Shown piece by piece: positions 481 through 35,253 of a stretch of DNA of 64,000 nt. Position numbers and translations under genes: made by a program. Numbering within the stretch: the first letter of the stretch is position 1; every line of letters begins with the position of its first letter. Source of the stretch: a virus; the IMG/VR virus record IMGVR_UViG_3300033977_000098, positions 1-64,000 of that record; one strand, written 5' to 3'. The notes beneath the pieces are model-generated. The model worked only from the letters and a program-made list of their open reading frames with translations. It had not been told where the DNA came from and searched no databases.

Positions 481-1419
481 TCAGACAGCGCTTTCTGGGA
501 CGGGCGTGAACGGTGTACCACCAAAGTTAATAAGATTATTGAACTTATTTAAGCAAGTATTCATAGATTTATCACACCCCGGAAATAGCGTGCAGGCATC
601 GCCTGTTGCGGGCGCGTTGACCAGCGGCGTGTAGAGCAGCACCGTATTCGGCGAGCCCGCCGTGAAGGCCCGCACGGGGACTTCCAGGCCGCTGTTAACG
701 CCGGAGGTGAACTTGAGTGTGCCTTGGGCGAAATAGCCAGACGGATTCGTCGGTCCGGAGACCATGAGTTTCTGGGTCCCACTTCCGGTAGCCACCGTGC
801 CGCTCACGCCAAAACTTGATTTCGTCAGCGTGCATCCCGGGCCATATAGTACCCAGCGGCAGCCGGGCATATAGACGTTGAACGGCATGGGAATATTCAG
901 CAGCTCGCGCCGGTCCTTCAGCGAAAAGACGGCGTGTTCGCGGCCGACCTCGGTGATATCCGAGACGTTGCCTTGAAAGAGCGGAATCGTGCCGCGCGAA
1001 GTATCCACGGGGCCCGGGCTGGGCGAATAAATTCGCTCAAGTTGCGCAAGCGCCCCGTCCAAATTGCCATTGACTAAAGCCTCTAAGAGCGTGAGACCCT
1101 GGTCTAGTGTGCCGGGCGAGGCATCCAGCGCCAGGCTGATTTCGTCCGTCTGCACGCCCATGCCCCACTTCAGATTATATGGATGGTCCTTCATGGGCTG
1201 GGGATAGAGGCTTACATTGGACGAGAACGTCACTGTGCCGGTGCGCGAGTCGCCTGGAAACGATGGATAGGTGAGCGTCACGTCCTGATCGCCGCTTGTG
1301 ACGCGGAAAACCGTTCCATCATTTAGGGTGAATGTCCAGAGGTCGGTCACGAGTAGCGCCATGTCGGTGCCCATAGCCGACTCAAGTAACGAAATCATGC
1401 CTGTCGTTGCCGGTTTCAT
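481..1419 (-). CDS. DUF2163-family tail-tip protein
   Basis: A 312-residue protein with the N-terminal beta-rich domain and C-terminal Cys-containing segment (PGCRWVLYGPGCTL near residue 190) typical of the DUF2163/BR0599 family. These proteins form part of the tail hub or tip in GTA-like siphoviral tails. The start at 1419 is supported by GGAG 8 nt upstream and overlaps the end of the preceding small gene by 38 nt, suggesting translational coupling. It lies between a DUF2460 protein and an NlpC/P60 peptidase, the usual order. No sign of disruption. Confidence 0.88.
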   Translation of the reverse strand: MKPATTGMISLLESAMGTDMALLVTDLWTFTLNDGTVFRVTSGDQDVTLTYPSFPGDSRTGTVTFSSNVSLYPQPMKDHPYNLKWGMGVQTDEISLALDASPGTLDQGLTLLEALVNGNLDGALAQLERIYSPSPGPVDTSRGTIPLFQGNVSDITEVGREHAVFSLKDRRELLNIPMPFNVYMPGCRWVLYGPGCTLTKSSFGVSGTVATGSGTQKLMVSGPTNPSGYFAQGTLKFTSGVNSGLEVPVRAFTAGSPNTVLLYTPLVNAPATGDACTLFPGCDKSMNTCLNKFNNLINFGGTPFTPVPESAV

Positions 1420-1549
1420 CCAAGAACTCCATGCCTACCAGAAAGACGCGGACCAGATCCTCGCGCCAGGGCGTTACTTCGTAAGTGAGACGGCAGAGCC
1501 GGAAGCCCAGGCTCACCACCCACACACGCTGCACTTCGATGCATACCAC
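1382..1549 (-). CDS. Small hypothetical protein between receiver and DUF2163
   Basis: A 55-residue frame beginning with GTG 1549. GGAG sits 3 nt upstream, immediately after the stop of the receiver gene, and the frame overlaps the DUF2163 start by 38 nt. The product begins MVCIEVQRVWVVSLGF and contains alternating hydrophobic residues. It matches no family I recognise. Its position and coupled spacing argue for real translation, perhaps as a tail-tip accessory or partner of the receiver protein, but that is inference. The short SD-to-start spacing is a weakness. Confidence 0.5.
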   Translation of the reverse strand: MVCIEVQRVWVVSLGFRLCRLTYEVTPWREDLVRVFLVGMEFLDETGNDRHDFVT

Positions 1550-1556
1550 CGGCTCC

Positions 1557-1943
1557 TCACGCCGCGTGCTTCCCGAGCACGCCGGCGCCGCTCGTAAGCG
1601 CGCGGTAAATCTCTTCGGCGTGCGTGGGCTTGCGAAAGACTTTAAGACCCATGTGCTCGGCTCTGCGCGCAATCTCGTCATCGCCAGTGTGGAGCAGGAA
1701 GCGTGCGTGCTGTTTCATGCACTTCGCAAGCACCGCCAGCCAGTGGTCCTTTGAGTTCTCCCGCGCTGGGAAATTGCCATCGCAAATCACTGCGTCACAG
1801 CCAGACAGTGCGTCCAATGCTTCCTCAAGATTCCCGGCCTCCCGAATCTCGTCAATCGAGCCCGCCGAGCCGTCAAGCATCCAAAGCAACTCCGCTAGGA
1901 TAGCGCGGCACTCGGATTCGTCGTCAATGATGAGCAGCTTCAT
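1557..1943 (-). CDS. Single-domain response-regulator receiver (CheY-like)
   Basis: 128 residues, the length of a stand-alone receiver domain. All signature residues are present: acidic pair D7-D8 in LLIIDDE, phospho-acceptor D55 in AVICDGNFP, T86 in LLHTGDD and K105-P106 in VFRKP. By family knowledge such proteins accept phosphate from a histidine kinase and switch conformation. No output domain is attached and no kinase is nearby. It is embedded between DUF2460 and DUF2163 tail-tip genes, 5 nt after the DUF2460 stop, so it is probably expressed late with the tail. The start has no strong SD, and a GTG lies 3 codons upstream. The function in a phage is unknown. It could be a virion component or a modulator of host signalling. 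Confidence 0.88.
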   Translation of the reverse strand: MKLLIIDDESECRAILAELLWMLDGSAGSIDEIREAGNLEEALDALSGCDAVICDGNFPARENSKDHWLAVLAKCMKQHARFLLHTGDDEIARRAEHMGLKVFRKPTHAEEIYRALTSGAGVLGKHAA

Positions 1944-1948
1944 GTGGC

Positions 1949-2593
1949 TCACAATTTCACCGAGATAATTTCCACTTGCTTCAGGGACCACAGTTGAAAC
2001 ATGAAGTTCTCCAGCTCCAGCATGTCCTTCTCGAACCGGCACGTGAAGTTATACGAGAAATCGGCCGTGATGACCACGCCGCTTCCTGGTGCCGTATTAA
2101 ACGTGATAATGCCCGTGCTGCCGATGGAGTAGCTGGTTGCCGCTTGCAGAGTGCCGTTCAAATAGACGTTGATTGCCGGGTTGCCAAAGGGCGCCTGAAT
2201 GGGCTCGATGAATCCGCCAAAAGTCCTCACCATCTGGAACTGGGTTTGCGTGGCGTTCCCTGTGCCGATGATCTGGCCCTGCACGGTATTGTCCGATGGG
2301 TCGAAAAACAAAAACGGATTCAAGCTGCCTTGCATTTGCAGGAAGAATCCTTCGAGCGTGCGCAAGTCGGTGTCGGTATTCTGCTCGTAAAGGTCATCGG
2401 GATTGTCCTTGAGGTAGTTGTATGAAATCTCGTAATGCCATCGGGGATATGTCCAGTACGCTAGGCGGAACTCCTTGCCCGAAGTCGCCTCGTGAATCTG
2501 CGTGCGCCATTCTGGGTGGCGCTTGATCGGCCAAGTAAGACCGCGCACGCCTAGACCTGCCGGGTCTATCGAAGGATAATAAGGCAAACTCAC
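1949..2593 (-). CDS. DUF2460 distal-tail protein
   Basis: 214 residues starting at GTG 2593, which overlaps the tape-measure stop (GTGA). GAGGTGG lies upstream. The sequence has the family hallmarks, including RTLEGFFLQMQGSLNPFLFFDP in the middle and a C-terminal beta-rich part ending in QVEIISVKL. DUF2460 proteins form the distal tail ring in GTA-like and siphoviral tails, linking the tube to the hub. The order tape measure, DUF2460, (receiver), DUF2163, NlpC/P60 is otherwise canonical. Confidence 0.88.
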   Translation of the reverse strand: MSLPYYPSIDPAGLGVRGLTWPIKRHPEWRTQIHEATSGKEFRLAYWTYPRWHYEISYNYLKDNPDDLYEQNTDTDLRTLEGFFLQMQGSLNPFLFFDPSDNTVQGQIIGTGNATQTQFQMVRTFGGFIEPIQAPFGNPAINVYLNGTLQAATSYSIGSTGIITFNTAPGSGVVITADFSYNFTCRFEKDMLELENFMFQLWSLKQVEIISVKL

Positions 2594-5037
2594 CGTCTAA
2601 TTCCACCTCGACTCGTCGCACCGTAGCCGCGCAGCATCCGCGCTACGGCATTCTGGAATTGCTGGTTGCGCCGCGCGAGGACCCGATCTACTCCCTTGGC
2701 GTCAAGCGCGCTAATGGGCCCCTGATGCAGCGAAACGTTATGTGTCCCTCCGCCGCCCAGCGTGCCTTCGCCGAGCGCTTTGAAGGCTGGCGTCAGCCAA
2801 GAGGGCGAAACGACTTCGGTCTCATGCACTAGCGCGAGCCCCGTCGCTCCTACTTGGCCGCCCTTCTGAAAAGCGGCAAGCGCCATCACCCCCGCAAAGG
2901 TTGCCGCAGCCGCAGCGGCGCCCAGCGCCGGGCCTACCACGGGAATATCAGATAAGGCATCCCAGGCTTTCGCGGCCGCAGATTTCGCAGATTTCAAGAT
3001 GCTCAGGCTCGCGCTGCCAGTTTCGATAGCCTCCCTTTGTGCCGCCGCTAGAGCCAAATTAGCTGTCTGCGCGGTCTCGGCGGTGCGTGCTGCGATCGTC
3101 TCCGCAACTTTCCCAGCAATGAACTTCTCGGTTATCTTCACGATGTTCTCGAAGGCTGTGTTCACCACGTTTGCCCACATACCGACCCAGGCATAGCGCC
3201 AGCGCTCTTGCCCCGAGGTCCATTTGAAGAGCGCCGAATCGAAAGAGTCCGTCATCTTCGTCATGCCTTGCTGCATGTTTAAGACTTCCTGGTTTTGCAG
3301 CTTTTGAACCTCTGCCTCGTACTTCTGGCGCGCGAGTTTCATTTTATTCAGCGTTTCCTGGTATTTCTCGTAGTCATCTTCGTAGGCTTTGAGGTCGATC
3401 TCGAGGGTCTTCTCCTGGGCGTCATATTGCGCCAGTGCCAAGTCTTTGAGCTTCGCTATTTTTTGATTAAAGCTCAATGTCCCCAGGGAGGATGCTTGTT
3501 CTACGGCGGTACGCTGCTGTTCGATCTGTCCGTCAGCAAATTCCTGCTCCTGCGCCGCCGCGCTGCGCTTTCGTTCCGCAAGTATCTCGGCTCCGCGGCG
3601 CGCTTGAGCATCGCTCTCCGCTTGTTGACGCACCTGCCTTTCAAAATTCGCAACAGTCGAATCTTGAATGGTCTTCTGGCCGGCCACGAAATGGTCCGTG
3701 ACTTCCGCGTCTAAGCTCTTGAGCTTGTCATCGTGCTCGACTTGGGCAGCCTCAATCTCGTGATTGATCGCCACAACTTCTGCCAGACGCTTGATGGGGC
3801 TTATCTCTGGCTCGGCTTCCACTCTGGCGCGCTTGGCAAGCAGAGCTTCAGTCTTGATGCGGTAGAGTTCGTCGGCATGCACGCGCTCGGCAGCAATTTC
3901 TTCACCCCAGGCATCCTTGTTGATCTTTGCAGTCTCCTTGGCGCGGTGGAGCGTGGCATCGACCAGGGCCGTGTCGCGCTTCTCGGTGGCTCCTAGGATG
4001 GCGGCGCTTCCTTCCAGCTCCTCCTTGACGGTATCGGTTGCTGCCCGCAACCTAGCGTTGTGCAGTTTTTCATCCTCAGCCCCGATACTTCGCTGCGCGT
4101 CCTGATAGAGCCGTGTTAACGCTGCGATCTGTGGACCGGCACGCGCTGCTCCCGTTGCCGCCAGTCGCGCCTCTTCCTCAGTGATCTCCTTGAGTCCCGC
4201 CCGCATTTTATCAACGGTGTCATGGGCCTCTATCCAGTTATAAATCCACGCCTCCAACTCGCTATTACTTTTTTCAGAAATAGTTGTCCCTGCGGCAACC
4301 GCCGAGCCCATCACTATGCCCATGGTTGCCATGTCTTTCATGTATTCCCAAGCGATACGTATGTTATCGGCGGTCGCCTGCCAGAAACTCGACTGCGTTT
4401 CGAGTACCTTGTTTGTATCCTCTATTGCACCCTTGAGGACGACGTGCATTTTCGGCATATCTTCGATTTCGGCGCGGTACTTGGCAAGCGGGCCTTCCGT
4501 GATTCCGATGTATTCCTCGTGAAGCTTGAGCAGCTCATCGGACTGGCGGTCCTCGGATTCCTTCAGCTCCATCGACGCTTTCGCGGTCTCAAGTTGCTTC
4601 TTCTCATATGCCTCGAAAATGGATATCCCGGCCGCGATAATACCAACAGGCACAAGTGCTGCCAAGACAGGCCCCACTCCTGCCGCTTGCACGCCAAGCA
4701 TTTCGATGAGCCGCCCCATGCGCGACATGCCAGGAACAGCTTCGAAAGCCATGTGGCCGGCCATGCGCGCCATGGTGTGTTCCATGCGCTCGACGTTGCC
4801 GACGCTGGCTGCGTTGGCTTCACCTAGCGCGCGCTGCGCAGTGGCGGCGCGCGCCAATGCTTCGCCCAAGTTTTTGAGATTTTCTTCAGAGCGCGTTTCC
4901 GTGGCGGCCGCTTGCGCGGCGTGGACCTGCTTTAAGGCATCGGAGTAGCGAAGGCTCGCTTCCGCAACCTGGTTCCAGCGGTTGACGGTTTCGTCTACGC
5001 CATCGACGACCAGCGTCGACCGCAACTCATCCGCCAT
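2590..5037 (-). CDS. Tail tape-measure protein
   Basis: 815 residues from ATG 5037 (GGAG 8 nt upstream), overlapping the preceding chaperone frame by 11 nt. The protein is mostly long charged alpha-helix and coiled coil. A hydrophobic stretch around residues 120-145 (GVGPVLAALVPVGIIAAGIS) and another near 705-730 (ALGAAAAAATFAGVMALAAF) are membrane-active segments usual in tape measures. The C-terminus has the common KGGQVGATGLALVHE tail. It sets tail length and is ejected during DNA entry. An in-frame ATG ten codons upstream (5067) is less well supported. Confidence 0.9.
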   Translation of the reverse strand: MADELRSTLVVDGVDETVNRWNQVAEASLRYSDALKQVHAAQAAATETRSEENLKNLGEALARAATAQRALGEANAASVGNVERMEHTMARMAGHMAFEAVPGMSRMGRLIEMLGVQAAGVGPVLAALVPVGIIAAGISIFEAYEKKQLETAKASMELKESEDRQSDELLKLHEEYIGITEGPLAKYRAEIEDMPKMHVVLKGAIEDTNKVLETQSSFWQATADNIRIAWEYMKDMATMGIVMGSAVAAGTTISEKSNSELEAWIYNWIEAHDTVDKMRAGLKEITEEEARLAATGAARAGPQIAALTRLYQDAQRSIGAEDEKLHNARLRAATDTVKEELEGSAAILGATEKRDTALVDATLHRAKETAKINKDAWGEEIAAERVHADELYRIKTEALLAKRARVEAEPEISPIKRLAEVVAINHEIEAAQVEHDDKLKSLDAEVTDHFVAGQKTIQDSTVANFERQVRQQAESDAQARRGAEILAERKRSAAAQEQEFADGQIEQQRTAVEQASSLGTLSFNQKIAKLKDLALAQYDAQEKTLEIDLKAYEDDYEKYQETLNKMKLARQKYEAEVQKLQNQEVLNMQQGMTKMTDSFDSALFKWTSGQERWRYAWVGMWANVVNTAFENIVKITEKFIAGKVAETIAARTAETAQTANLALAAAQREAIETGSASLSILKSAKSAAAKAWDALSDIPVVGPALGAAAAAATFAGVMALAAFQKGGQVGATGLALVHETEVVSPSWLTPAFKALGEGTLGGGGTHNVSLHQGPISALDAKGVDRVLARRNQQFQNAVARMLRGYGATSRGGIRR

Positions 5038-5305
5038 GGGCCTTCTCCTTCTTCCGCTGTTCCGCAAGCGCGCGCACGTCGGGCGGCAGTTGGTCCCAGG
5101 TCGTAATGCCGACTTCGCGCGTCATTCCTGCGCGGCTCGTAACAGTTTGTTCGGTGTTGGTCAAAGGCGGACGCGACTCGGAGTGCTGCCCGATGCGGAT
5201 GCCGAAAGCCGCAGCGAACATTTGGGTGAGCTGGCGGAGTGCCAGGTGGGGAGGCGGGAAGCGGCGGAAGTAGTCACACAAATCCAAGACCTTCGGGAAT
5301 TCCAT
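5027..5305 (-). CDS. Tail assembly chaperone, T part of a frameshifted G-T protein
   Basis: The frame from ATG 5305 gives 92 residues, but the same frame stays open upstream past the stop of the G gene and encodes GCILVATHIGWKELDD and similar coding-like sequence just before this ATG. It lies in the -1 frame relative to the G gene at 5341-5811. This is the arrangement of lambda-type tail chaperones, where a minority of ribosomes slip back one base to make a G-T fusion. The main product is therefore probably the fusion, not a protein starting at 5305. It sits directly upstream of the tape measure, as expected. Confidence 0.72.
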   Translation of the reverse strand: MEFPKVLDLCDYFRRFPPPHLALRQLTQMFAAAFGIRIGQHSESRPPLTNTEQTVTSRAGMTREVGITTWDQLPPDVRALAEQRKKEKAHGG

Positions 5306-5895: not shown

Positions 5896-6642
5896 TCAAG
5901 CTGATATCTGGAAGAAATCCACCACCTTGCCTGCCGCGTTCGGGTAGGCTTCAAACTCGAAGTCCGAAATCAGGTAATTGTCCCGCTTCAGCGGGTTCGA
6001 CATCTTCGAGCACCGACACGTATAAAGATGAACCCCATTGGTCCCTTGATAGGGCTCCAGCAAGAACAGTTCGAATGTCGGGCCGTACCCTTGCAAATGG
6101 TTGTTGGCCGTCAGCGTCGTCCCAGAGCTTGAAGTGTAGACATAGCTGATGAGGACAGCGGCTCCAGCGTCGCCAGAATAGAACGTGTATGTCCCCGTGG
6201 ACGTGCTGACCGTGTATTGGCCCGCAGCGGTGAGGCTCGACACGCGCACGAGCGGTTGCCCCGTGCTGGCGTACTGTACCCCTAGGTCCTCGCTGTAAGT
6301 GGCATGGTTAGTGACCTGGATAGTATATGGTCCCGGGCTGGTCGGCACAGGCTGCGATTCTTGCGGTTGCACAATGCTGATGCCCGTAACCGTCGTCTCG
6401 GCGTAGAAGAGTGCATTGTAGATGTTGATTTCGATGTTCGCGAAGGCCGCCTTGCCGCTGATCTTCATGTCCGAGGGAGCCACATCGTCCGGAAACTTGT
6501 TTTGCCCGTAGAGGGACTGGAGCTTCTGCGTGATCTCCAAGTCTACATTCTGAATCGTCCCGAAGCGCTGCGGCCAGGATGGTGAGCCCTGGTTGCCGCC
6601 GTTTGGGTTGCCATACATCCCGCCTACGCCGAATTGAAACAT
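5896..6642 (-). CDS. Major tail tube protein, copy 2
   Basis: 248 residues, starting MFQFGVGGMYGNPNGG at ATG 6642 behind GGAGG. It is a close paralogue of the next gene: both ends (first ~80 and last ~70 residues) are nearly identical, while the middle (residues ~85-170) diverges. Conserved parts include NVDLEITQKL, DMKISGKAAFANIEINIYN and a C-terminal YLISDFEFEAYPNAAGKV, consistent with a tail-tube beta-sandwich. The divergent middle may be a surface loop or added domain. It lies upstream of the chaperones, as tube genes do. Confidence 0.8.
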   Translation of the reverse strand: MFQFGVGGMYGNPNGGNQGSPSWPQRFGTIQNVDLEITQKLQSLYGQNKFPDDVAPSDMKISGKAAFANIEINIYNALFYAETTVTGISIVQPQESQPVPTSPGPYTIQVTNHATYSEDLGVQYASTGQPLVRVSSLTAAGQYTVSTSTGTYTFYSGDAGAAVLISYVYTSSSGTTLTANNHLQGYGPTFELFLLEPYQGTNGVHLYTCRCSKMSNPLKRDNYLISDFEFEAYPNAAGKVVDFFQISA

Positions 6643-6660: not shown

Positions 6661-7401
6661 TTATACAGAAATCTGATAGAAGTCGATCACCTTCCCGGCG
6701 GCATTCGGATATGCTTCAAACTCGAAGTCGGAGATGAGATAGTTGTCACGCTTCAACGGATTGCTCATCTTCGAGCAGCGGCAGGTGTAGAGGTGTACAC
6801 CGTTCGTGCCCTGATACGGCTCCAAGAGAAAAAGCTCGAAGGTGGGGCCATAGCCCTGGAGGTGGTTTAGCGCCGTCAGTGTGTTGCCCGAAGTCAGCGT
6901 ATAGCTGTAGGAGATGAACACTGGAAAGCCGCTGGACACGTCGGCCGAACTGAACGTGTAAGTCGCGCTGCTCACCGTGTACTGGCCTGCGGCGGGCGTA
7001 CCGCTGGGGAGGCGCACGAGCGGTTGGCCGGTCGTGCCGTTACGCACCCCGAGGTCCTCGCCGAAGGCCCCGCTGCCGGGCGGCGTGATCGTCACCGTGG
7101 AAGCGATGGCGTGACTTTCATCCGGGCTTACCGCCGTGATGCCGCTGGCGACCGTGTCCGCGTAGAAGAGTGCATTGTAGATGTTGATTTCGATGTTCGC
7201 GAAGGCCGCCTTGCCGCTGATCTTCATGTCCGAGGGAGCCACATCGTCGGGGAATTTGTTCTGCCCGTACAGCGAGACGAGTTTTTGGGTGATTTCGAGA
7301 TCGACGTTCTGGATGGTGCCGAAACGCTGCGGCCAACTGGGTGACCCGGCATTGCCGCCGTTAGGATTTCCGTACATTCCGCCCACGCCGAATTGAAAAA
7401 T
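6661..7401 (-). CDS. Major tail tube protein, copy 1, probable ATT start
   Basis: Paralogue of the following gene. The proper start appears to be ATT at 7401: the codons ATT TTT CAA TTC GGC GTG GGC align exactly with ATG TTT CAA TTC GGC GTA GGC of copy 2, and GGAGG lies 9 nt before the ATT, as in copy 2. The only ordinary in-frame alternatives, GTG 7386 and ATG 7377, are 24 nt or more from that SD. The product would be 246 residues. A promoter-like sequence at 7467-7495 may drive the tube genes. Tandem tube genes with different central regions could give tubes of mixed composition. Confidence 0.8.
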   Translation of the reverse strand: MFQFGVGGMYGNPNGGNAGSPSWPQRFGTIQNVDLEITQKLVSLYGQNKFPDDVAPSDMKISGKAAFANIEINIYNALFYADTVASGITAVSPDESHAIASTVTITPPGSGAFGEDLGVRNGTTGQPLVRLPSGTPAAGQYTVSSATYTFSSADVSSGFPVFISYSYTLTSGNTLTALNHLQGYGPTFELFLLEPYQGTNGVHLYTCRCSKMSNPLKRDNYLISDFEFEAYPNAAGKVIDFYQISV

Positions 7402-7495: not shown

Positions 7496-7640
7496 GCGAT
7501 TTTTTTAAGGGTAGGCCGATTTCCTTGGCGAGCTTTTCGCGGAGTTGTTTGGCGAGTTGGATCTCAGTGAAATTCAATGCGCCGTGCGCGAGGGCGCTAT
7601 CGAGGGCAAGGATAATAACTTTCTTCTCGTCATCGGACAT
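7470..7640 (-). CDS. Small hypothetical protein whose ATG overlaps the tRNA-Thr CCA
   Basis: 56 residues (MSDDEKKVIILALDSA...), charged and helical. The A of its ATG at 7640 is the last base of the encoded CCA of the tRNA-Thr gene, so the two genes overlap by one base and any ribosome-binding site would lie inside the tRNA. Translation would have to come from unprocessed transcript or occur without a leader after tRNA 3' processing. No family recognised. Confidence 0.55.
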   Translation of the reverse strand: MSDDEKKVIILALDSALAHGALNFTEIQLAKQLREKLAKEIGLPLKKSLDGSNSAF

Positions 7641-7715
7641 GGAGCCGCCGAGAGGACTCGAACCTCCAATTGCCAGTTTACGAGACTGGTCCTGTCGCCA
7701 CTGAGGCACGGCGGC
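7640..7715 (-). tRNA. tRNA-Thr (anticodon CGT)
   Basis: A 76-nt cloverleaf on the minus strand: 7-bp acceptor stem GCCGCCG/CGGCGGC, discriminator U and encoded CCA, D-stem CCT/AGG, anticodon stem CCAGT/ACTGG with loop CUCGUAA (U33, anticodon CGU), 5-nt variable loop, T-arm GGAGG-TTCGAGT-CCTCT. It reads codon ACG. It is directly abutted by the tRNA-Ser gene with no spacer. Confidence 0.93.
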
Positions 7716-7800
7716 TGGCGGAGGATAGAGGAGTCGAACCCCACGGTGTTACCCGCCCTGGTTTTCAGGACCAGTTGCCGCCCGCGCAGCAGTATCCTCC
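7716..7800 (-). tRNA. tRNA-Ser (anticodon TGA), unusual C33
   Basis: An 85-nt tRNA: acceptor GGAGGAT/ATCCTCC, discriminator G, encoded CCA, anticodon stem CTGGT/ACCAG with loop CCUGAAA giving anticodon UGA (Ser, UCA codons), a long variable region as in class II tRNAs, and a T-loop with TTCGACT. Position 33 is C rather than the almost universal U, and the T-stem is imperfect, so it may be diverged. Its 3' end touches the 5' end of tRNA-Thr. Confidence 0.82.
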
Positions 7801-9115: not shown

Positions 9116-9987
9116 GCCAACGCCAGTTGCGTGTAATTGACGATGATCTTCTCGTCTTCAGGCTCAATGTCGAAGTCGCGATAGCTGACTGTGCCTGCGC
9201 CCTGGGCAAGTGCTTGACTCTTCTGCCCGATCCATTGCCGCGTCTTGTAATTCTTTGCCACGACGCGGCGGCACGCGAGCTCGAGGTCATAAGGTGTGGA
9301 TGTGAAGCCTGCCTGATAAACGACTTCGATGTTGAGTACACCTTTCTGGAATGACAGTCCGGCCGACCCGCCCCACAGTCCCCACGCCATCGTGGTGTTG
9401 TAAAAATTGGGTCCGCCGATTCCGGCTCCTGAGCGGAGACGCAAGCTCTTGCCGTCGGGCGCGATGACCCAGCCCGCTTGGTTCAACGAGGCTGACTGTG
9501 TGATCGTGTTGCCGTTGATCGTGAGGGAACTGACGCTTTGAATCGGCGTCTGCCGGAGGAAAAGCTGATTCGAGCCGTTGCCGTCATACCATTCCGTGTA
9601 AGCCTGCGGAGCCACCAGCGGAGAGGCGGCAGGAACATCACCGTTCGAGGGGAGCCGGCCGGTGCGCCACAAAAAGAACAGTGATGCCGCCGTGATGCAA
9701 TCCTGGATCATTTCGTCTTCGCACAGGCCGCCATCCTGCCAAGTGACGTTGCCATCTGTGGTCTGCCCCCCATTCTCATTCCAGGTAGGCGCAGTCCCGC
9801 CCGACTGGCCATTGCCCGTGATGCCGACAACGGTTTGCAGATGGCCCGTACCGCCCGAGCTGGCATCATTGATTTGGGAGGGAGGGCTCAGCGTGTAAAC
9901 CGTATTCTTCGTCCAGGAAGGCAGCACGGCGCTTTGCAGCCATGCTTTGACTCGGGCTAAAGACGTTAAATCTATAGCGTTAGACAT
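9112..9987 (-). CDS. Head-tail connector with inserted beta domain
   Basis: 291 residues. The outer parts (SLARVKAWLQ at the start, CITAASLFFLWRTGR and the C-terminal DLELACRRVVAKNYKTRQWIG) match gp6-like connector proteins, which are usually near 100-200 residues. Between residues ~25 and 85 there is an added module with the G-S-G...PTWNENGG...DGNVTW pattern found in phage carbohydrate-binding and spike domains, which may decorate the neck. It overlaps the HNH gene by 8 nt. Confidence 0.72.
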   Translation of the reverse strand: MSNAIDLTSLARVKAWLQSAVLPSWTKNTVYTLSPPSQINDASSGGTGHLQTVVGITGNGQSGGTAPTWNENGGQTTDGNVTWQDGGLCEDEMIQDCITAASLFFLWRTGRLPSNGDVPAASPLVAPQAYTEWYDGNGSNQLFLRQTPIQSVSSLTINGNTITQSASLNQAGWVIAPDGKSLRLRSGAGIGGPNFYNTTMAWGLWGGSAGLSFQKGVLNIEVVYQAGFTSTPYDLELACRRVVAKNYKTRQWIGQKSQALAQGAGTVSYRDFDIEPEDEKIIVNYTQLALA

Positions 9988-10516
9988 TCATCTCTTCTTT
10001 TACCCGCAGTATTTGGTTCGTCGTCCAGTCAGAAACCGCCTTCAATTCGAAAGCAGTTGCGTTTCTTTTTATCGAATTCGCCCGGAAAGAGATGACGGCA
10101 ACATTGCCAGGAACGTATCCAAGCTCTGGGATGATTTTATCGATGGATGGACGTGAATCGACTATCGATCCATCGAGTTTTATTCCCAGGACTGGACAGA
10201 ACTTAGGGATTAGGGCCGCCAGATATTCTTCCGTGATGGTGAATGCAAAATTTTCTTTTTTTGCCCTGGCCTTTGCATGTTGCCACATGATTCTAGCCGG
10301 TCTGATCCTCGCCAAGTTTTCGTCTCTGTGTTTTCGTGCTTGCTTCACCTCTGGTTTCGCATGATAATCGCGGTTATAGTTAGCCTGACACGAACGGCAG
10401 AGCGTTTGTCGTCCACGTTTCTTCCTTGCGAATTCCGAGAGGGGCTTCGGACCGCATCCGCTGCAAATTCTGCTTTCCTTTCCTGGTATATCATTACTGA
10501 ACGGAGCCGGACACAT
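9980..10516 (-). CDS. Free-standing HNH-type homing endonuclease
   Basis: 178 residues from ATG 10516 (GAGAGG upstream). The N-terminus has a four-Cys zinc motif (CSGCGPKPL...CRSCQ). The C-terminal part has the HNH-like block SIDKIIPELGYVPGNVAVIS followed by RANSIKRNAT, the layout of phage-encoded homing endonucleases of the SPSLDRI..GY..gNv type. It is wedged between a glycosyltransferase-methyltransferase and a connector gene, where it probably spreads by cutting intronless alleles. The local codon composition is less GC-rich, suggesting recent arrival. Confidence 0.78.
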   Translation of the reverse strand: MCPAPFSNDIPGKESRICSGCGPKPLSEFARKKRGRQTLCRSCQANYNRDYHAKPEVKQARKHRDENLARIRPARIMWQHAKARAKKENFAFTITEEYLAALIPKFCPVLGIKLDGSIVDSRPSIDKIIPELGYVPGNVAVISFRANSIKRNATAFELKAVSDWTTNQILRVKEEMNV

Positions 10517-10533
10517 CTTTACCTCTCGTTGTC

Positions 10534-11790
10534 TTAGACATAGGTGTACCAAATCGTCGTCTCGGGAGCGATTTGAGCCCCCGTAACGCACTCATCGACG
10601 GCCTGGCGCACGCTCGGCCAGTTTTCCGCGTAGTCGTGCCCGCAGAGCAATCCACCAGGCGCCAACCGGCCGCGCCAGGTTTCGATGTCGCGTTTCAGCT
10701 CGTCATATTCGTGGCTGCCGTCCAAAAATACCATATCGGGACCGTGCGGAGCGGTTAAGCATTCCGTAGCTTCTGCAGGACAGGCTTCAAGAACAGCGAC
10801 CGCATGGTCTGACCGTTGCGGGCGCACCTTACCATTCAAATTCTCCATATTGACGAGGAAGCGGTCGAAGAGTACGGCGCGATCGGCGGCAGAAAGCGTT
10901 GCATCGCGTGGCCCGTTCCAATCGTCGATCGCATGAACGTGCCCCGGCGTGTTGTCGCCGAGGACGCGCGTGGATCTTCCGAGATAACTGCCGATTTCCA
11001 CGATACATTGATGCGCCCTGGCTTGTTTGCCCAACCATGCCAACTCGGTTTCTTCCATCCAGCCGTCAATCTGAATGGCGCGTTCGAGGTTAACGCCGGG
11101 ATACGTGCGGGCCCGCCACCGCTTCCACGGCAGGCTCTCTTTGGGAAGCTCGTGGACCTTCCCCGTACCGATATCACAGTGCAAACACAACACGGAACTG
11201 TCCACCAAGATCCGGCATCCCGCTTCGTGGAGCTTCTGGCAGAAGTATAGGTCCTCCCAGGTTTCCAGGTTGTATTTCACCCCGCCCCACGTGACTGGCT
11301 TTTTCTCGAAAGTGAAATAGGGCTTGGCGAGCTTGTCAAACACGCTCATGCGGATGAGGGCGCAGCCCAAGCCGATCTCTTCGACTTCGAAAGTATCGCT
11401 CACCGTCCAGTCCCAAAAAGGTCCGTCCCCGGCTTTTTTGAAGACGACCGGCGCCGGCGGGTCCTGCTTCGACACATAGATTCCCGAGACCACGTCAATC
11501 TCCGGGTGATTCTCGAGATCATAAATGAGGCGCACTAGGCCGTGGACGGGAGGCACCGTGTCGTCGTCCACAAAGTAGAGGAGGCGGCAGTTCGCAGATT
11601 GCGCAGCTTCTACCATCTCGTTACGCGCAATGTCCGTGCGCTTGCCGACCGTATGAAACCGCAGGATATAAAAATTGGGTGGGTCAGGAAGGCCAGGAAC
11701 GGAAAGTGCCCACTGGTAGGGAACCGGACGGCCGGACAAAGGGACGCAGAAAGCTAATCCGCGCCGCACTTTGTCCGGGTAAACATGCAT
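10534..11790 (-). CDS. Glycosyltransferase-methyltransferase fusion
   Basis: 418 residues in two domains. Residues ~1-235 form a GT-A fold glycosyltransferase: the metal-binding LLYFVDDDTVPP and a later EDLYFCQKLHEAG block. Residues ~240-418 form a class I SAM methyltransferase of the Methyltransf_24 type: glycine motif IVEIGSYLGRSTR, an acidic AIDDW strand, and MVFLDGSHEYDELKRDI with GGLLCGHDY. A two-step sugar transfer then methylation of a virion protein, DNA or host glycan is plausible. The acceptor is unknown. It lies inside the head gene cluster between two HNH genes. Confidence 0.8.
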   Translation of the reverse strand: MHVYPDKVRRGLAFCVPLSGRPVPYQWALSVPGLPDPPNFYILRFHTVGKRTDIARNEMVEAAQSANCRLLYFVDDDTVPPVHGLVRLIYDLENHPEIDVVSGIYVSKQDPPAPVVFKKAGDGPFWDWTVSDTFEVEEIGLGCALIRMSVFDKLAKPYFTFEKKPVTWGGVKYNLETWEDLYFCQKLHEAGCRILVDSSVLCLHCDIGTGKVHELPKESLPWKRWRARTYPGVNLERAIQIDGWMEETELAWLGKQARAHQCIVEIGSYLGRSTRVLGDNTPGHVHAIDDWNGPRDATLSAADRAVLFDRFLVNMENLNGKVRPQRSDHAVAVLEACPAEATECLTAPHGPDMVFLDGSHEYDELKRDIETWRGRLAPGGLLCGHDYAENWPSVRQAVDECVTGAQIAPETTIWYTYV

Positions 11791-17508: not shown

Positions 17509-17658
17509 TCAAAACGTAGCCGGCACGACCTTGAACGCTCCCCCGTGAAACTGAACTGGCAGGCGCTCGAACCACAGCGCCGGGTCCGTTTGTCGCGTGA
17601 CCACGCGATAATCGCTCGGACCTGCGGCCTCACCCGGCTTCGGGCGCTTTTTGTCCAA
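17509..17658 (-). CDS. Small hypothetical protein after MuF, TTG start
   Basis: A 49-residue frame (MDKKRPKPGEAAGPSDYRV...) from TTG 17658, overlapping the last 29 nt of the MuF gene in a different frame and preceded directly by TGA. The C-terminal part (TDPALWFERLPVQF, HGGAFKVVPATF) has a strongly protein-like composition unlike the other frames. No SD is obvious, so translation may be coupled to MuF. No family recognised. Confidence 0.5.
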   Translation of the reverse strand: MDKKRPKPGEAAGPSDYRVVTRQTDPALWFERLPVQFHGGAFKVVPATF

Positions 17659-20600
17659 TCATGCTGGCAGGGCCCTGCTCGATTACGCCCGCGTCATTGA
17701 TGAACACATGCGCGCCACGAATGGTCACCCAGCCCTTGCCCAAGGCTTTGTTGAAACTGACCGCAATGACGGCGCAATCGCAGTTCTTGACCACAATACC
17801 GCCTATGTTGTATATATGAGAAGTGGTGGATGCGTCAAAAGCCCAGCCATGAAATCGCCCAACTTGAGTCTGAAGAATTCGCGCCGCCTTAAAGAACGGT
17901 GGTCCCGGTTCACAGCAGAGCAGCGCAAGATCATCCTGGCACCCGCTCACGCCGCTGCCAGCGTTGCCAACAGGGCTCGCATGAAAGAATTTTGGCGCAC
18001 TGCTACGCTCAGCCAACGTCGAAAGATGCTTGAACCTGCCCACGCTGCTGCGCGCGGTCGCAAAGAACGCCTGGAATCCAAGTTGGCACGTGCCGCAACT
18101 CGCTACATGCGCGCCGTCGGGATAGGCCCCCGAGAGCGGGCATTTGCAAAGATGCTCAAGTTCGCTGGAATCAAGTTCCGACAGCAAACTCCTTGCGGGC
18201 CTTACAGCTTGGACTTCACCATAGACGAAAGTTTCGTCGCCGTGGAAATACGAACGGGGAGCAGCAACAAACGAGTAGCCAAAGCGGCCGCGCAGAGACT
18301 CAAAAGCGTCCTGGATCAATGGCACCTGTTCGAGGTTCGGTTCCATAGCGGGCATCCTCGCCGATTCCATGCGCATGTCATAAAGCAACTCGTCACCTTT
18401 CTTCAGTTCGTGCGCAAACAAGAAACCACGGCAGGTCAACATTGGGTGGTTAGGCCCGATGGTCAGTTTTATCCGTTCCGAGCCTATGGGCCGCGTAGGC
18501 CAGCCGTGATCACCAGGGAGCAATTGGCGCTCGTCGAGCGCCTCTTTAAGCTTAACGTCTCGTTGCGGAACATCCGTCGTGAAACTGGAGTAGCTCGGCG
18601 ACGACTGCCCGCAGTTCTCAGCCAACTCCAGCTCCAGCGCAATCGCGGGGCCGTGGTATGGCGCACCAAGCATTTGCTGAAGTCTGCCATAGGGCGCAAA
18701 AACTGAGCCTTCAAATACCGCGTTGGGATGTGCCGGGGGGGCCTCTACGTCCACGCCAGGGAAGGTTTCGCCTAGCGAAACGACCTCTCCATTCGCATCC
18801 TTACAGTCATCGCACGTGTTGGGCTCAACCGAAGTCTGCCATTGAAGTTTTTTTACTACCCCGCTGTCTTTCCAGACATCATAGTTCGCGTGGCATTGGG
18901 CGCGTGCGACCTCGGTGCGGGCAATCATCTCGGCGCGGGAATCAGAGAACGCGCCCGCCTCGCGGATTTGCTCGATAAGGTCGGGCATTGGAGTTTCTTT
19001 GCCGAAAGCATCCGTCACGATGCTGCGGAGATCGTCCCGCGTGGTATCACTGATGGCCCACTTCGCGTCGGCATTCTCGACGAACGTCCCATCTTCCAGT
19101 TTGTGCATTCCCACCAGTTCGGCCGCGCGTTCATCCGCCCAATCTTGTGCGCCTTGGTTCAGGGCAGAGATCATGTCGTCGTCCGTCAAGTCCAGTTCAG
19201 CTACACCTTTCCCGATGCCTGCGAACGCGGCGTGTCGCAGCGGGGGCGCTGCCTCCATTGGGATCTCGCCGAAAAGTTCCTGAAGCGCCTCGAAAATCGC
19301 ATCTGCGATGTTGATGGCGTCATCGTCCTGCTTAGCCAAATCGAACTCCTCGATTTTCTTTTTTCCATTCTTAAAGGGGATAGTGCGGATGCGCTCGAAA
19401 TCATCCGGGTCCGCCTGGCGCGCCCGATAACTGGAATCTGTTTCCTGAATCTCCGTTTTGAAGTCATGGTCCTTCAGCCATGCGCGCACATCTTCTTTTG
19501 TCCACGCATCCTTCGGCATGAAGAGGATCGACTGCGCCTCTGTCCGCCCACCTTCCGGACCCTTTTCGGAAGGCTTGCGAACGCCCACCGTTGCCGAAAT
19601 GCGCCGCGCCGCTTTCCCGAAGCCATCCACAATCAGGGCGTGCACCATCTCATCATGGACCTTCAGCAAGCGGTCAGCCTTTTCCTTGGCGCGGTCGCGC
19701 TGCCGGCGAAAAACTTTCTTGATAATTTCTGCCAGCTCGCGCTCCGCTTCCTGGAGGGCGGGCGTGGAATGCGAGGGGTCGATTTTGATGTTGGCCGCCT
19801 TCGCTAGTGGCAGGGAGCGGCTCTTAGTGGAAACGCTTGGTGCTTTGTCAATTAACTCGTCGCACGTCCCGCACTTGAATTGGCGCACTTGCTCATCGGC
19901 TGGCCCGAAATCGTTGCAGCAGCCCAGCTCCTTTGAGACACCACCTTTGACATAGACGGTTTTGCAATCGGCGTCTTTGACGGCACCTGGGAACTCCATG
20001 TACCCGGCGTCTTCTTCAGGCTTGCGAGAATCGCGTTTGAGAATCGTAAGCGTCTGCGCGCCACCAGTGGCTTTCCAATACGGTTGGAAATTCTTGACCG
20101 CCTCGATGAATTCCGGCGTCCACTCGCCCAGGAACTGGGTGGCTTTGTCGTCCACAAACTCGTGCGCCATGACCGGCTTGACGTTCGTGATGTCCAGTAC
20201 GTAGGCGCTCGCCTTGTTTTGTTGCAGCGCCACCCACACGGGTCCGAAGTCTGTCCGCGCTGTGAAGATCAAGATATCAAAATCCTTAGACAACTCCCGC
20301 AGGGCGTCCACGGCGCCGTCGATAAACTCCGTGATCGCCGTCGGGTCGTCGGGGTCGCCGACTTGAATGGTGGAATCGAAGTCGAGGCAGAGAAGGGGCT
20401 TTTGCAGCAAATCGGTTAGCGCCTTGACGAGTTCGCGCTCATAGGCGGCTGTCGGCATTTGCTGCAAGCCTTCATGTTTCACATAAACATTAGCATTGCT
20501 CAACTCCGTTGGCAAATCCTCTTCCACGATAAGGCTGTCCGACGCGATGGCAATGCCATCGGCCCGCACCAATAAGTTGGCGAGGTTGGTAAGTGTGTTC

Positions 20601-20797
20601 CGCACATCAGCGCTCACGTTGCCCTGCGCCGCAAACAGCGCCGCCTTGCGTAACGCTTCAGGGTCCGTGCTGTACCCCTGGTCGCAGAACTTCTGTAGTT
20701 CGCTGGGCCCCTCGCCAACCGCCGCGCAGAGGTCAGACCAGCCTCTACCTGAAGCCAGCGGACCTACGTAGTCAGTGCCGAACAATGATATACTCAT
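17630..20797 (-). CDS. MuF head protein with HAD domain and split by an intein
   Basis: 1055 residues from ATG 20797 (GAGGTGG upstream). Residues ~135-220 carry HAD-type motifs (LLCLDFDSTI with DxD, IFTAR, FVDDKA), a phosphatase-like domain. A cysteine-rich patch follows near residue 300 (CCNDF, CGTCDELI). Residues ~590-690 are the MuF/SPP1 gp7 domain (ARTEVARAQCHANYDVWK, CDDCKDANGE, PPAHPN). The MuF motif HPNCDC is interrupted after N692 by a 313-residue intein and resumes at C1006. The C-terminus repeats GWVTIRGAHVFI seen in the next gene upstream. MuF proteins sit inside the head near the portal and are often injected. Confidence 0.82.
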   Translation of the reverse strand: MSISLFGTDYVGPLASGRGWSDLCAAVGEGPSELQKFCDQGYSTDPEALRKAALFAAQGNVSADVRNTLTNLANLLVRADGIAIASDSLIVEEDLPTELSNANVYVKHEGLQQMPTAAYERELVKALTDLLQKPLLCLDFDSTIQVGDPDDPTAITEFIDGAVDALRELSKDFDILIFTARTDFGPVWVALQQNKASAYVLDITNVKPVMAHEFVDDKATQFLGEWTPEFIEAVKNFQPYWKATGGAQTLTILKRDSRKPEEDAGYMEFPGAVKDADCKTVYVKGGVSKELGCCNDFGPADEQVRQFKCGTCDELIDKAPSVSTKSRSLPLAKAANIKIDPSHSTPALQEAERELAEIIKKVFRRQRDRAKEKADRLLKVHDEMVHALIVDGFGKAARRISATVGVRKPSEKGPEGGRTEAQSILFMPKDAWTKEDVRAWLKDHDFKTEIQETDSSYRARQADPDDFERIRTIPFKNGKKKIEEFDLAKQDDDAINIADAIFEALQELFGEIPMEAAPPLRHAAFAGIGKGVAELDLTDDDMISALNQGAQDWADERAAELVGMHKLEDGTFVENADAKWAISDTTRDDLRSIVTDAFGKETPMPDLIEQIREAGAFSDSRAEMIARTEVARAQCHANYDVWKDSGVVKKLQWQTSVEPNTCDDCKDANGEVVSLGETFPGVDVEAPPAHPNAVFEGSVFAPYGRLQQMLGAPYHGPAIALELELAENCGQSSPSYSSFTTDVPQRDVKLKEALDERQLLPGDHGWPTRPIGSERIKLTIGPNHPMLTCRGFLFAHELKKGDELLYDMRMESARMPAMEPNLEQVPLIQDAFESLRGRFGYSFVAAPRSYFHGDETFVYGEVQAVRPARSLLSELDSSELEHLCKCPLSGAYPDGAHVASCGTCQLGFQAFFATARSSVGRFKHLSTLAERSSAPKFFHASPVGNAGSGVSGCQDDLALLCCEPGPPFFKAARILQTQVGRFHGWAFDASTTSHIYNIGGIVVKNCDCAVIAVSFNKALGKGWVTIRGAHVFINDAGVIEQGPASMIGQKAPEAG
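17783..18721 (-). mobile_element. Ala1 intein in the MuF protein
   Basis: 313 residues inserted between PPAHPN and CDCAV. The intein begins AVFEGSVFAPYG (Ala1 rather than Cys/Ser). It has a block B with TIGPNHPMLT and HELKKGDELL, and ends with block F/G FDASTTSHIYNIGGIVVKN followed by Cys+1. Ala1 with a nucleophilic +1 Cys is the class 2 layout, in which the C-extein cysteine attacks directly. No LAGLIDADG motif occurs in the intein frame. Its centre reads as low-complexity sequence because the opposite strand carries an endonuclease-like frame. Confidence 0.82.
17849..18706 (+). CDS. Vsr/DUF559-like endonuclease antisense inside the MuF intein
   Basis: A 285-residue frame from ATG 17849 (an alternative ATG lies at 17816), entirely inside the intein coding region but on the opposite strand. 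The centre has the restriction-like core of DUF559/Vsr proteins: ERAFAKMLKFAGIKF, RQQTPCGPYSLDF and ESFVAVEI, followed by QRLKSVLDQWHLFEVRF. Upstream is a repeated basic segment (RKIILAPAHAAA and RRKMLEPAHAAA), and downstream a helix-turn-helix-like stretch (VSLRNIRRETGVARRRL). It would be the homing enzyme of the intein, encoded antisense. No strong SD precedes either start. Confidence 0.68.
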   Translation: MKSPNLSLKNSRRLKERWSRFTAEQRKIILAPAHAAASVANRARMKEFWRTATLSQRRKMLEPAHAAARGRKERLESKLARAATRYMRAVGIGPRERAFAKMLKFAGIKFRQQTPCGPYSLDFTIDESFVAVEIRTGSSNKRVAKAAAQRLKSVLDQWHLFEVRFHSGHPRRFHAHVIKQLVTFLQFVRKQETTAGQHWVVRPDGQFYPFRAYGPRRPAVITREQLALVERLFKLNVSLRNIRRETGVARRRLPAVLSQLQLQRNRGAVVWRTKHLLKSAIGRKN

Positions 20798-20918
20798 CGG
20801 TATCCACCTCATCGACCTTACTGGACAGCGGTTTGGTAAGCTCGTCGTTCTGCGACGGAGCCCGAAGCTGGTAGCGTATGGTTCGCTTTGGGAGTGTCTC
20901 TGTGACCATCGTCTCCAT
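20772..20918 (-). CDS. Small acidic protein overlapping MuF start
   Basis: 48 residues (METMVTETLPKRTIRYQL...DTDEYIIVRH) in a different frame from the HTH frame above and the MuF gene below, overlapping the MuF start by 26 nt. The composition is clearly protein-like with an acidic C-terminal half. It shows that the HTH frame is probably not the translated one across 20.8-20.9 kb. A GGAG lies close to the second ATG. No family recognised. Confidence 0.55.
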   Translation of the reverse strand: METMVTETLPKRTIRYQLRAPSQNDELTKPLSSKVDEVDTDEYIIVRH

Positions 20919-21409
20919 CCTCTTGGATGCCTCGGCAGGCCATAAACCTGGAAGATGCGAACCACAGTTATTTCCGTGCGCCTAATACGCTTAGCAACCT
21001 GCTTCAACGTGAGACCCGCCATGTAGAGCTGGTGCATCGGCCGCACGACCTCGATGGGCCACAACGTTGTGCGGCGGCGATTCAGGCGCGGACCGCGCGA
21101 GCCAGTCGGACGTCTCTCTACGCCGAATCGCCGCAATGCATACAAAATCGCAGTATGATGGACGCCATACCGGTCCGCAAGCTGGTGAAGCGTCCAACCT
21201 TTCCGGTAAAGCTGCGCGCATTCCTGTAACGGCACTGTGGCGTGAAACGGGCGTATGGGAAAGCCGTTGCGCGCGAAGAGCTGACGGACCCGTTCGCGGG
21301 ACAGGCCGATGCGCCGCGCCACTTCCGCGACCGTGAGCCCTGCGACGTGAAGCCGATGCAGCTTTCGGATGTGCTCTGTGGTCCATCTTCGAGCATGTTC
21401 ACTTCGCAT
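20798..21409 (-). CDS. Triple helix-turn-helix protein, open in frame into MuF
   Basis: From ATG 21409 (GGAG at 8 nt) the frame encodes three successive helix-turn-helix units: GLTVAEVARRIGLSRERVR, GWTLHQLADRYGVHHTAIL and GLTLKQVAKRIRRTEITVV, each followed by a short basic linker. The start overlaps the stop of the upstream gene by 11 nt. No stop codon occurs before the MuF ATG in the same frame, so a fusion is possible, but the last ~40 codons look non-coding and a different small gene occupies that stretch. The stop codon may have been lost, or the gene was inserted here. Confidence 0.6.
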
Positions 21410-22823
21410 CGGGATTCTCCAAAAAGCTACCATCATCAAGTTTGTGTAGAGCAAACGGCGATGTGATTTTGCTGATAAATGCCCGAAGCTGCTTGAGGTT
21501 TTTGAGCGGGGTCATCTGCCCTATTCGGAACGCCCCCATGCCTTCGTGCACGAATATCTTTTCACCCCCCCCTCGGTTGTCGATGAGTACGCAATAGCCT
21601 TTCGCACGATTCTGCGTCAGGTCTTCTAGCTTTCTCTCTCGGCATTCTGGCCGCATGTTGATGCGCACGTTCGTCAGCTTCTTGCCCAACAGCGTCTTGA
21701 CCTCAAGCCCGACCTTACCGCCCCCGGCGCGCACGTAGATATCGAGGGGGGAATTGTCTGGTGTGCGCTCACCGCCTACCGCCTCCGCAACGCGCTGTTC
21801 GTTCGCATCCGCCTTGCGCTGGTGCGCCTTCAAGGCCGGCTTGAAGTTCTTAAGCGCGGCCGTGCACTTGTCGGCAACCAGCGAGCCATCTGGCTTGAGC
21901 TGGTGGCCTACCATGCTGTGGGGGCCGTGCGTGATGCGCCCAGCCTCGTCGATAAACACGTGGGCACCGCGGATCGTGACCCAGCCTTTACTAACTGGTT
22001 GCGGCGCCGCGCCCTCTGTCCATCGTCCGTGCTCATCACGCGGCTGGTCCGGCGAATACTTGCTCAAGCTTTCCCACGCTGTTAACGCCTTGTTCACGCC
22101 GAAGCGTGCGCCAATAGCGTCGCGCCGGCCGATGAGCGCGTTCGCGTATTTCCCGGACAGCCCAGCTTCGTTCACTAGCTCGCGGATCGTGTCGTCATCA
22201 AGGGTGGCGACGAGGTGTTGCGCCTGGGCTTGCAATTCGTCATCAGTGAACCCCGCAAATATTGGTGCCGCATCAGGCGCCGTTTCCCGGTCCCGCATTG
22301 AATCAATCTCCGGGACTATTATTGCTGAAACGTCCTTATCCTGGCCTTGGGCTCGGAACGCGAACGTGCTTCCATTGTCGATGCGCAGATCGCGGCCATC
22401 AACACGTAGGATATTGCGGCCGCTGCTGCCGATGACATCGTGGTTAGCAAGGAGACAATCTGTAAGAAACCCGTCGCGCACGTCGGGGCTTTCGGCCAGT
22501 TCGTCACTGTCCAACTGTTCGCCTTCGACCATCTTGCCCGCGATGCCCAGGCCGCTCGCCTCGCCCCACCCGGCGTGGCCGGAAACGAGCTGCTTCTCTG
22601 GGACCGGCAATCCTACCGTGCGGTAAACCAGCGTCGCCAATAGTTCGGCGCGAGATTGCTCAGGGTCAAGCTGAGGGAACTTGACGTACCACTGCTGTCC
22701 GCTCTCGTCCTCGTAGACGCCGCCAGGATTTGAGCCTTTGTGCTGGCTGACGTGCCACCAGGAAGCAATGGACTCAGGTGCGCTCGCCTTGGTGAGCGTT
22801 CCGGCAATGAGAGAAGCGTCCAA
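21399..22823 (-). CDS. HipA-like kinase domain fused to PD-(D/E)XK-like domain
   Basis: 474 residues from TTG 22823. Residues ~25-200 resemble phage HipA/PI-kinase-like proteins: NPGGVYEDESGQQWYVKFP, RAELLATLVYRTVGLPVPE, DGFLTDCLLANHDVIG and RDLRIDNGSTFAFR. Then comes SKYSPDQPRDEHGRWTEG and the module GWVTIRGAHVFIDEAGRI. Residues ~355-400 contain LDIYV...VGLEVKTLL, a possible D..ExK nuclease signature. The C-terminus ends HKLDDGSFLENPDAK, matching a MuF segment (HKLEDGTFVENADAK). The arrangement recalls capsid-associated effector proteins. Activity is inferred. Confidence 0.62.
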   Translation of the reverse strand: MDASLIAGTLTKASAPESIASWWHVSQHKGSNPGGVYEDESGQQWYVKFPQLDPEQSRAELLATLVYRTVGLPVPEKQLVSGHAGWGEASGLGIAGKMVEGEQLDSDELAESPDVRDGFLTDCLLANHDVIGSSGRNILRVDGRDLRIDNGSTFAFRAQGQDKDVSAIIVPEIDSMRDRETAPDAAPIFAGFTDDELQAQAQHLVATLDDDTIRELVNEAGLSGKYANALIGRRDAIGARFGVNKALTAWESLSKYSPDQPRDEHGRWTEGAAPQPVSKGWVTIRGAHVFIDEAGRITHGPHSMVGHQLKPDGSLVADKCTAALKNFKPALKAHQRKADANEQRVAEAVGGERTPDNSPLDIYVRAGGGKVGLEVKTLLGKKLTNVRINMRPECRERKLEDLTQNRAKGYCVLIDNRGGGEKIFVHEGMGAFRIGQMTPLKNLKQLRAFISKITSPFALHKLDDGSFLENPDAK

Positions 22824-29392: not shown

Positions 29393-29718
29393 TAGCGCTC
29401 CTTCTCCGCGTGCTCTTTGACAACCTCGGCAGGGGGCGCGGGAAGCGGTACCGACCACAGTTCACTTGGAACCAGCGGCGGCTTAAACCAGTATGCCTGA
29501 CATGCCTTGCACCAACAAACGATTGCTCCTGGTTTGCGCTGAGTCTCGGCAGGCCATTCGAGCTGGGGCTCCCACTGAATGCGATTGCCGTCGCGGTTGC
29601 CGCAGGCCGGGCATTTCTGATTCGGCTCGATGCGCGCCACTTTGTCGTGCGCGCCGCCTGGACGCGCCAGCCAAGTCACGTACCAGCGCGCGAGAGCGGC
29701 CTTGAGGCGGGCGAGCAT
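29392..29718 (-). CDS. Zinc-ribbon protein upstream of portal
   Basis: 108 residues. The N-terminal helix (MLARLKAALARWYVTWLA) is followed by CPACGNRDGNRI and CWCKACQAYW, a zinc ribbon, then a proline-rich linker. The stop overlaps the portal ATG (TAATG). A TATAGC sequence lies just before its start but no clear -35 is seen. The 176 nt upstream hold no gene. Role unknown. Confidence 0.6.
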   Translation of the reverse strand: MLARLKAALARWYVTWLARPGGAHDKVARIEPNQKCPACGNRDGNRIQWEPQLEWPAETQRKPGAIVCWCKACQAYWFKPPLVPSELWSVPLPAPPAEVVKEHAEKER

Positions 29719-32300: not shown

Positions 32301-32465
32301 TCATCTGTCCATCATCTCCGCAAGCAATCGAATCCGATTGGCAAGAACCAAGATTGCCGCTTGGTTGTTGAGTTCGGGAGTCGCGGTAAGCAGCCCCCAC
32401 GACTCCTTAAGCATCGTCTGGACATGGAGAAAGTCCTCGACTTCCTGCTCGACTTCCTGCTTCAT
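32301..32465 (-). CDS. Small helical protein coupled to terminase
   Basis: 54 residues from ATG 32465, overlapping the terminase stop (ATGA) with AAGGGA upstream. A single amphipathic helix (KQEVEQEVEDFLHVQTML) and a second helix rich in Leu/Ile/Arg. It may bind another packaging protein. No family recognised. Confidence 0.6.
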   Translation of the reverse strand: MKQEVEQEVEDFLHVQTMLKESWGLLTATPELNNQAAILVLANRIRLLAEMMDR

Positions 32466-35242: not shown

Positions 35243-35253
35243 CACAGCCTCGC

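Follow-up and report, generated by a model that had tools for sequence, protein, structure and literature searches.

Stand-alone receivers near phage tail genes are already known in four marine Alteromonas phages, and have been published for two of them. In phages A5 (gp11) and V22 (gp30) a CheY-like gene lies in the host-recognition module and has been called an auxiliary gene of host signalling (PMC10579305, PMC7289586). Phages PB15 and XX1924 came up in a tblastn with A5 gp11, each with a receiver downstream of late surface/tail fibre genes; many other records matched in this search are unannotated, apparently bacterial contigs labelled as phage, and were left out of the count. In all four phage receivers the acidic pair is conserved along with the Asp and the Lys, and in PB15 the gene that follows the stand-alone receiver is annotated as a carboxypeptidase. 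The cREC domain of jumbo phages (PMC7824862) was set aside, as it is of a different, NAD-linked kind. Osp, a single-domain response regulator, inhibits CckA directly (PMC9430884); since it is a cellular gene it serves here as a works-like model only, that is, as a one-domain receiver acting on a kinase. Other single-domain receivers have been proposed in the literature as phosphate sinks, and EpsW is a stand-alone receiver which activates an effector, a polysaccharide-initiating glycosyltransferase (PMC12802240). Among phage proteins, PIT4 is known to bind host kinase domains (PMC10714779); similarly to the role proposed below, this is a phage product acting on several host histidine kinases, but PIT4 is an early gene.

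The window analysed here, a stretch of 64,000 nucleotides from the 74,636-base virus record IMGVR_UViG_3300033977_000098, contains a gene for a protein of this kind (Table 1). As with A5 gp11 and V22 gp30, the receiver is stand-alone and encoded in a late operon beside tail genes, and it has the DD, D and K columns in common with them. However, identity to these two proteins is about 17–25%, their PF00072 scores are strong, and their genes are placed after the tail fibre chaperone, while the receiver of the window is found between DUF2460 and DUF2163. The PB15 and XX1924 receivers (125–137 aa) are also stand-alone and sit a few genes downstream of late surface/tail fibre genes, but they are about 20% identical to that of the window, carry KS instead of KP and occupy a different place in the gene order.

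Table 1. Receiver gene and surrounding tail genes, in window coordinates.
Feature	Position	Strand	Details
DUF2163 / phage BR0599 gene (baseplate hub attachment, GTA g13-like), downstream of receiver	481..1419	-	PF09931, PF09356, phrog_778
Possible 55-aa ORF, GTG start	1382..1549	-	between receiver and DUF2163; overlaps DUF2163 start
Stand-alone CheY-like receiver gene	1557..1943	-	ATG (from 1943) to stop, 128 aa; D55 phospho-site with D7/D8, T86, K105
DUF2460 gene (distal-tail-like; GTA g12-like), upstream of receiver	1949..2593	-	PF09343, E=2.6e-48
Tape-measure protein gene	2590..5067	-	phrog_2854, E=7.7e-8

The receiver ORF is a real coding gene, on the minus strand, which the preliminary description had not stated. 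Scored against the phage's own codon usage, its frame gives 0.327 bits/codon, within the range of nearly all structural genes (0.17–0.40), while the other five frames at this place reach at most 0.14, and at 0.73 its GC3 is in keeping with the phage. Codon usage together with the aligned catalytic residues rules out that the ORF is an artefact or non-coding.

The assignment as a receiver needs some care, as the protein is divergent. The Pfam receiver profile PF00072 matches only residues 4–61 (E=0.005, 17.4 bits), below the gathering score of 30.2 bits. Near-full-domain matches were obtained with the LytR family: the NCBIfam profile NF010684, the top family profile, covers residues 1–110 (E=6.6e-5), and the S. 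aureus LytR receiver 6m8o, the top solved sequence, aligns to residues 1–114 (E=4.9e-4); a repetitive 'tendon repeat' protein at the head of the PDB matches owes its rank to the summing of repeats and was dismissed as an artefact. In the 6m8o alignment D7/D8, D55, T86 and K105 are all in register, so that the acidic pair, acceptor Asp, Thr/Ser and Lys are found at the conserved CheY-like positions (MKLLIIDDESE...VICDGNFPARE...FLLHTGDDE...VFRKP) and the complete phospho-relay set named in the preliminary description stands; P106 is intact as well. The phage families phrog_5982 and phrog_731 match the receiver weakly, while the clear Alteromonas phage receivers match both strongly. Structure prediction added little: AlphaFold run on the single sequence gave a model of low confidence (pLDDT 55), although strands and helices follow in the order expected of the five-fold alternating beta/alpha fold, and a second run with two Alteromonas receivers added was worse (pLDDT 47). 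A Foldseek search with the pLDDT-55 model returned almost exclusively receivers among the top PDB matches, none of them below an E of 0.001. VIA-align of the same model gave Z of at most 5.9 (3.6 Å over 94 residues), which is in the range of common arrangements and, with so poor a model, uninformative on the fold. A PADLOC match to mads_2 at 12.6 bits was taken as chance. It is above all the sequence alignments, together with the five residues, that lead us to identify the protein as a divergent receiver, and the structural work is consistent with this. LytR itself has its own DNA-binding output domain. The window protein has none, as the ORF stops at residue 128 and the next ORF is in a different frame, and by its sequence it is a single-domain response regulator. 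The description as a stand-alone receiver of 128 residues is thus borne out.

The earlier placement between DUF2460 and DUF2163 is likewise confirmed by profile matches of both flanking genes (Table 1). The TGA stop of DUF2460 ends 5 nt ahead of the receiver ATG. The possible 55-aa ORF on the other side has a coding-like codon score, and no homologue of it was found in phages, PHROGs or Pfam. Since the tape-measure gene lies next beyond DUF2460, the receiver is located at the tail-tip end of the structural operon; the gene downstream of DUF2163, cut by the window edge, is NlpC/P60-like in comparison with related tails, by position and sequence. Consensus scans revealed neither a sigma-70-like promoter in 1300–2200 nor terminator-like sites flanking the receiver gene, and no repeats were found at the edges of the insertion. 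HATPase_c and Hpt domains have no match within the 74.6-kb record.

Several other features stand out elsewhere in the window; the portal, terminase, tRNA, tube-like, fusion and 1274-aa loci named here are all on the minus strand. Intein-like arrangements are found in the portal gene (25148–29458, 1436 aa), where the portal matches are split by a LAGLIDADG-bearing segment, and in the large terminase (32462–35245), with a LAGLIDADG_3 match at residues 672–730. Genes for tRNA-Thr (cgt) and tRNA-Ser (tga) stand back to back at 7640–7800, inside the structural operon between tube-like genes and connector genes. The tube-like gene itself is present in two tandem copies (5896–6642 and 6661–7386), as it is in the relatives L058 and L059. 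A glycosyltransferase-2/Methyltransf_24 fusion (10534–11790) adjoins an endonuclease VII-like gene (9980–10591), the two forming an apparent accessory pair amid head-tail connector genes. Finally, a 1274-aa ORF (17630–21454) begins with helix-turn-helix/GcrA-like matches, and a Phage_Mu_F head-morphogenesis domain follows further on.

Is the receiver then a regular part of such tails? We compared 66 other loci, comprising 55 viral loci with DUF2460, nine recovered via capsid-like or tube-like genes, one genome locus and Brevundimonas phage Strzyga; several are near-identical, so that the independent lineages number fewer than 66. DUF2460 and DUF2163 are directly adjacent in 65 of them, with 45–155 nt (median 48) between the DUF2460 stop and the DUF2163 domain start, as against 593 nt in the window and 1025 nt in L066. 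The insertion in L066, a distant contig, is a 272-aa NTP_transferase nucleotidyltransferase (3386–4204 of that locus), from which it follows that the junction accepts accessory genes. A receiver at the junction was found in none of the 66, and PF00072 had no match in the 64 other viral records, at a limited sensitivity under which the window's own gene scores 16.5 bits. In the nearest relatives, G001 and G002, whose capsid-like protein is 76% identical and whose gene order is conserved through the tube genes, DUF2163 directly follows DUF2460 without a receiver. The receiver is not a conserved component of GTA-like tail tips. As loss in all other loci would be much less economical, most likely it was gained in the lineage of the window phage, judging from these comparisons, at a junction also used by at least one other phage.

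These results change several points of the preliminary description. A special component of this tail type is not supported by the survey of GTA-like tail operons, a check suggested there: absence from all 66 loci together with the intact single copy indicates an acquired accessory gene. A chance insertion was to be recognised there by related phages lacking the gene and by loss of the phospho-site; the relatives do lack it, but the phospho-site of the single copy is intact. Receivers had been called rare in phage structural operons; with the four Alteromonas precedents beside tail genes, the setting is less exceptional than that suggests. Absence from relatives is also what a moron would display, but its own promoter and terminator, also part of the strict definition, were not found in the consensus scan, and so we use the term accessory insertion.

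No homologue of the receiver was found in IMG/VR viral contigs, GTDB genomes or the phage collection as searched, nor in 289 genomes from the same class as the L084 genome; contig scans used short exact peptides or plain tblastn, by which distant relatives are missed. Plasmids gave only weak matches of ~30% identity (E 0.02–0.04), to a PAS-domain protein and a response regulator. The DNA pattern for ICDGNFP occurs in 13 viral stretches, each time by chance, either in a short ORF or in an unrelated protein, and scans with the tape measure and DUF2163 did not reveal a closer tail relative. In the collections searched no close bacterial donor was found.

What would such a protein do for the phage? 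It is probably an acquired accessory which acts on host signalling proteins. Our tentative main reading, to which we give a probability of about 0.4, is that of a single-domain response regulator, acquired horizontally and expressed late along with the tail genes, which would serve as a sink for or inhibitor of host histidine kinases. In this scenario the phage lineage would have acquired the gene at the DUF2460–DUF2163 junction; it would be transcribed with the late tail genes, with translation coupled to that of DUF2460, and the protein would remain in the host cytosol. There it would take phosphate from, or dock on, at least one histidine kinase of the host, so that a host pathway, for example envelope, surface polysaccharide or motility control, may be drained or blocked late in infection. 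As no kinase or HPt was found in the phage, the phosphate for a working receiver would come from the host. Consistent with this reading, the five catalytic residues are kept despite divergence beyond the Pfam cut-off, and the protein has no output domain. The phage-typical codons, the start 5 nt past the DUF2460 stop and the lack of an own sigma-70-like promoter in the consensus scan would fit late co-expression with the tail. The gene is absent from the 66 other loci and from G001/G002, with the slot in L066 holding a nucleotidyltransferase, and by analogy Osp, the proposed phosphate sinks, EpsW and PIT4 may serve as precedents. Against it are the failure to find a homologue and the Pfam score under the curated cut-off, and the close coupling to DUF2460 would suit a structural role just as well.

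In such a role the protein would have been recruited to the tail tip or to its assembly, as a virion component or chaperone, and the receiver fold would serve for binding. This would agree with the place of the gene between two tail-tip genes, tightly spaced from DUF2460, and with the Alteromonas phages, where the receiver likewise has tail fibre and chaperone genes nearby. However, nothing is found at the junction in 65 of the 66 other tails of this type, and a structural role would not need all five catalytic residues, which makes it quite unlikely. The more elaborate proposal, that the receiver sits on or in the tail tip, delivered or positioned by the virion, and lets the host phosphorelay modulate tail assembly or early infection, we consider highly improbable; if true, it would mean a phospho-switchable phage particle. 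The intact phospho-site would also suit a sensor, by which the phage reads the host phosphorelay state in timing late functions such as lysis, and the gene annotated as carboxypeptidase after the PB15 receiver could point the same way. Yet there is no output domain, no phage partner was identified, and a gene inside the late operon is made into product after the main decisions, so that we regard sensing as very unlikely.

Two further explanations rank next after the main reading, though each is rather doubtful. The receiver may bind some non-kinase effector in the cytosol, such as a polysaccharide-initiating glycosyltransferase, and so alter the host surface during infection. EpsW (PMC12802240) is the precedent here, L066 holds a nucleotidyltransferase of NDP-sugar type in the same slot, and the window phage carries the glycosyltransferase-methyltransferase gene, but the evidence for this polysaccharide link is circumstantial and in part that of another phage. 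Alternatively, the gene could be a passenger, captured without phage function, whose decay has not yet begun to show. It is indeed a single copy in a single contig and no relative has a receiver, although the gene is like those of the phage in codon use and GC3, its frame is intact with no catalytic residue lost, and the search of GTDB, the 289 genomes of the class and plasmids gave no close bacterial donor.

What remains of interest at this locus is the unusual slot, taken up by a receiver that is divergent and apparently intact. That phages may be steering host two-component signalling with a host-type protein has been little studied, and the reports which we found are descriptive. Such a receiver in a tail-tip slot, together with four phages which have receivers near their tail genes, suggests a recurrent strategy.
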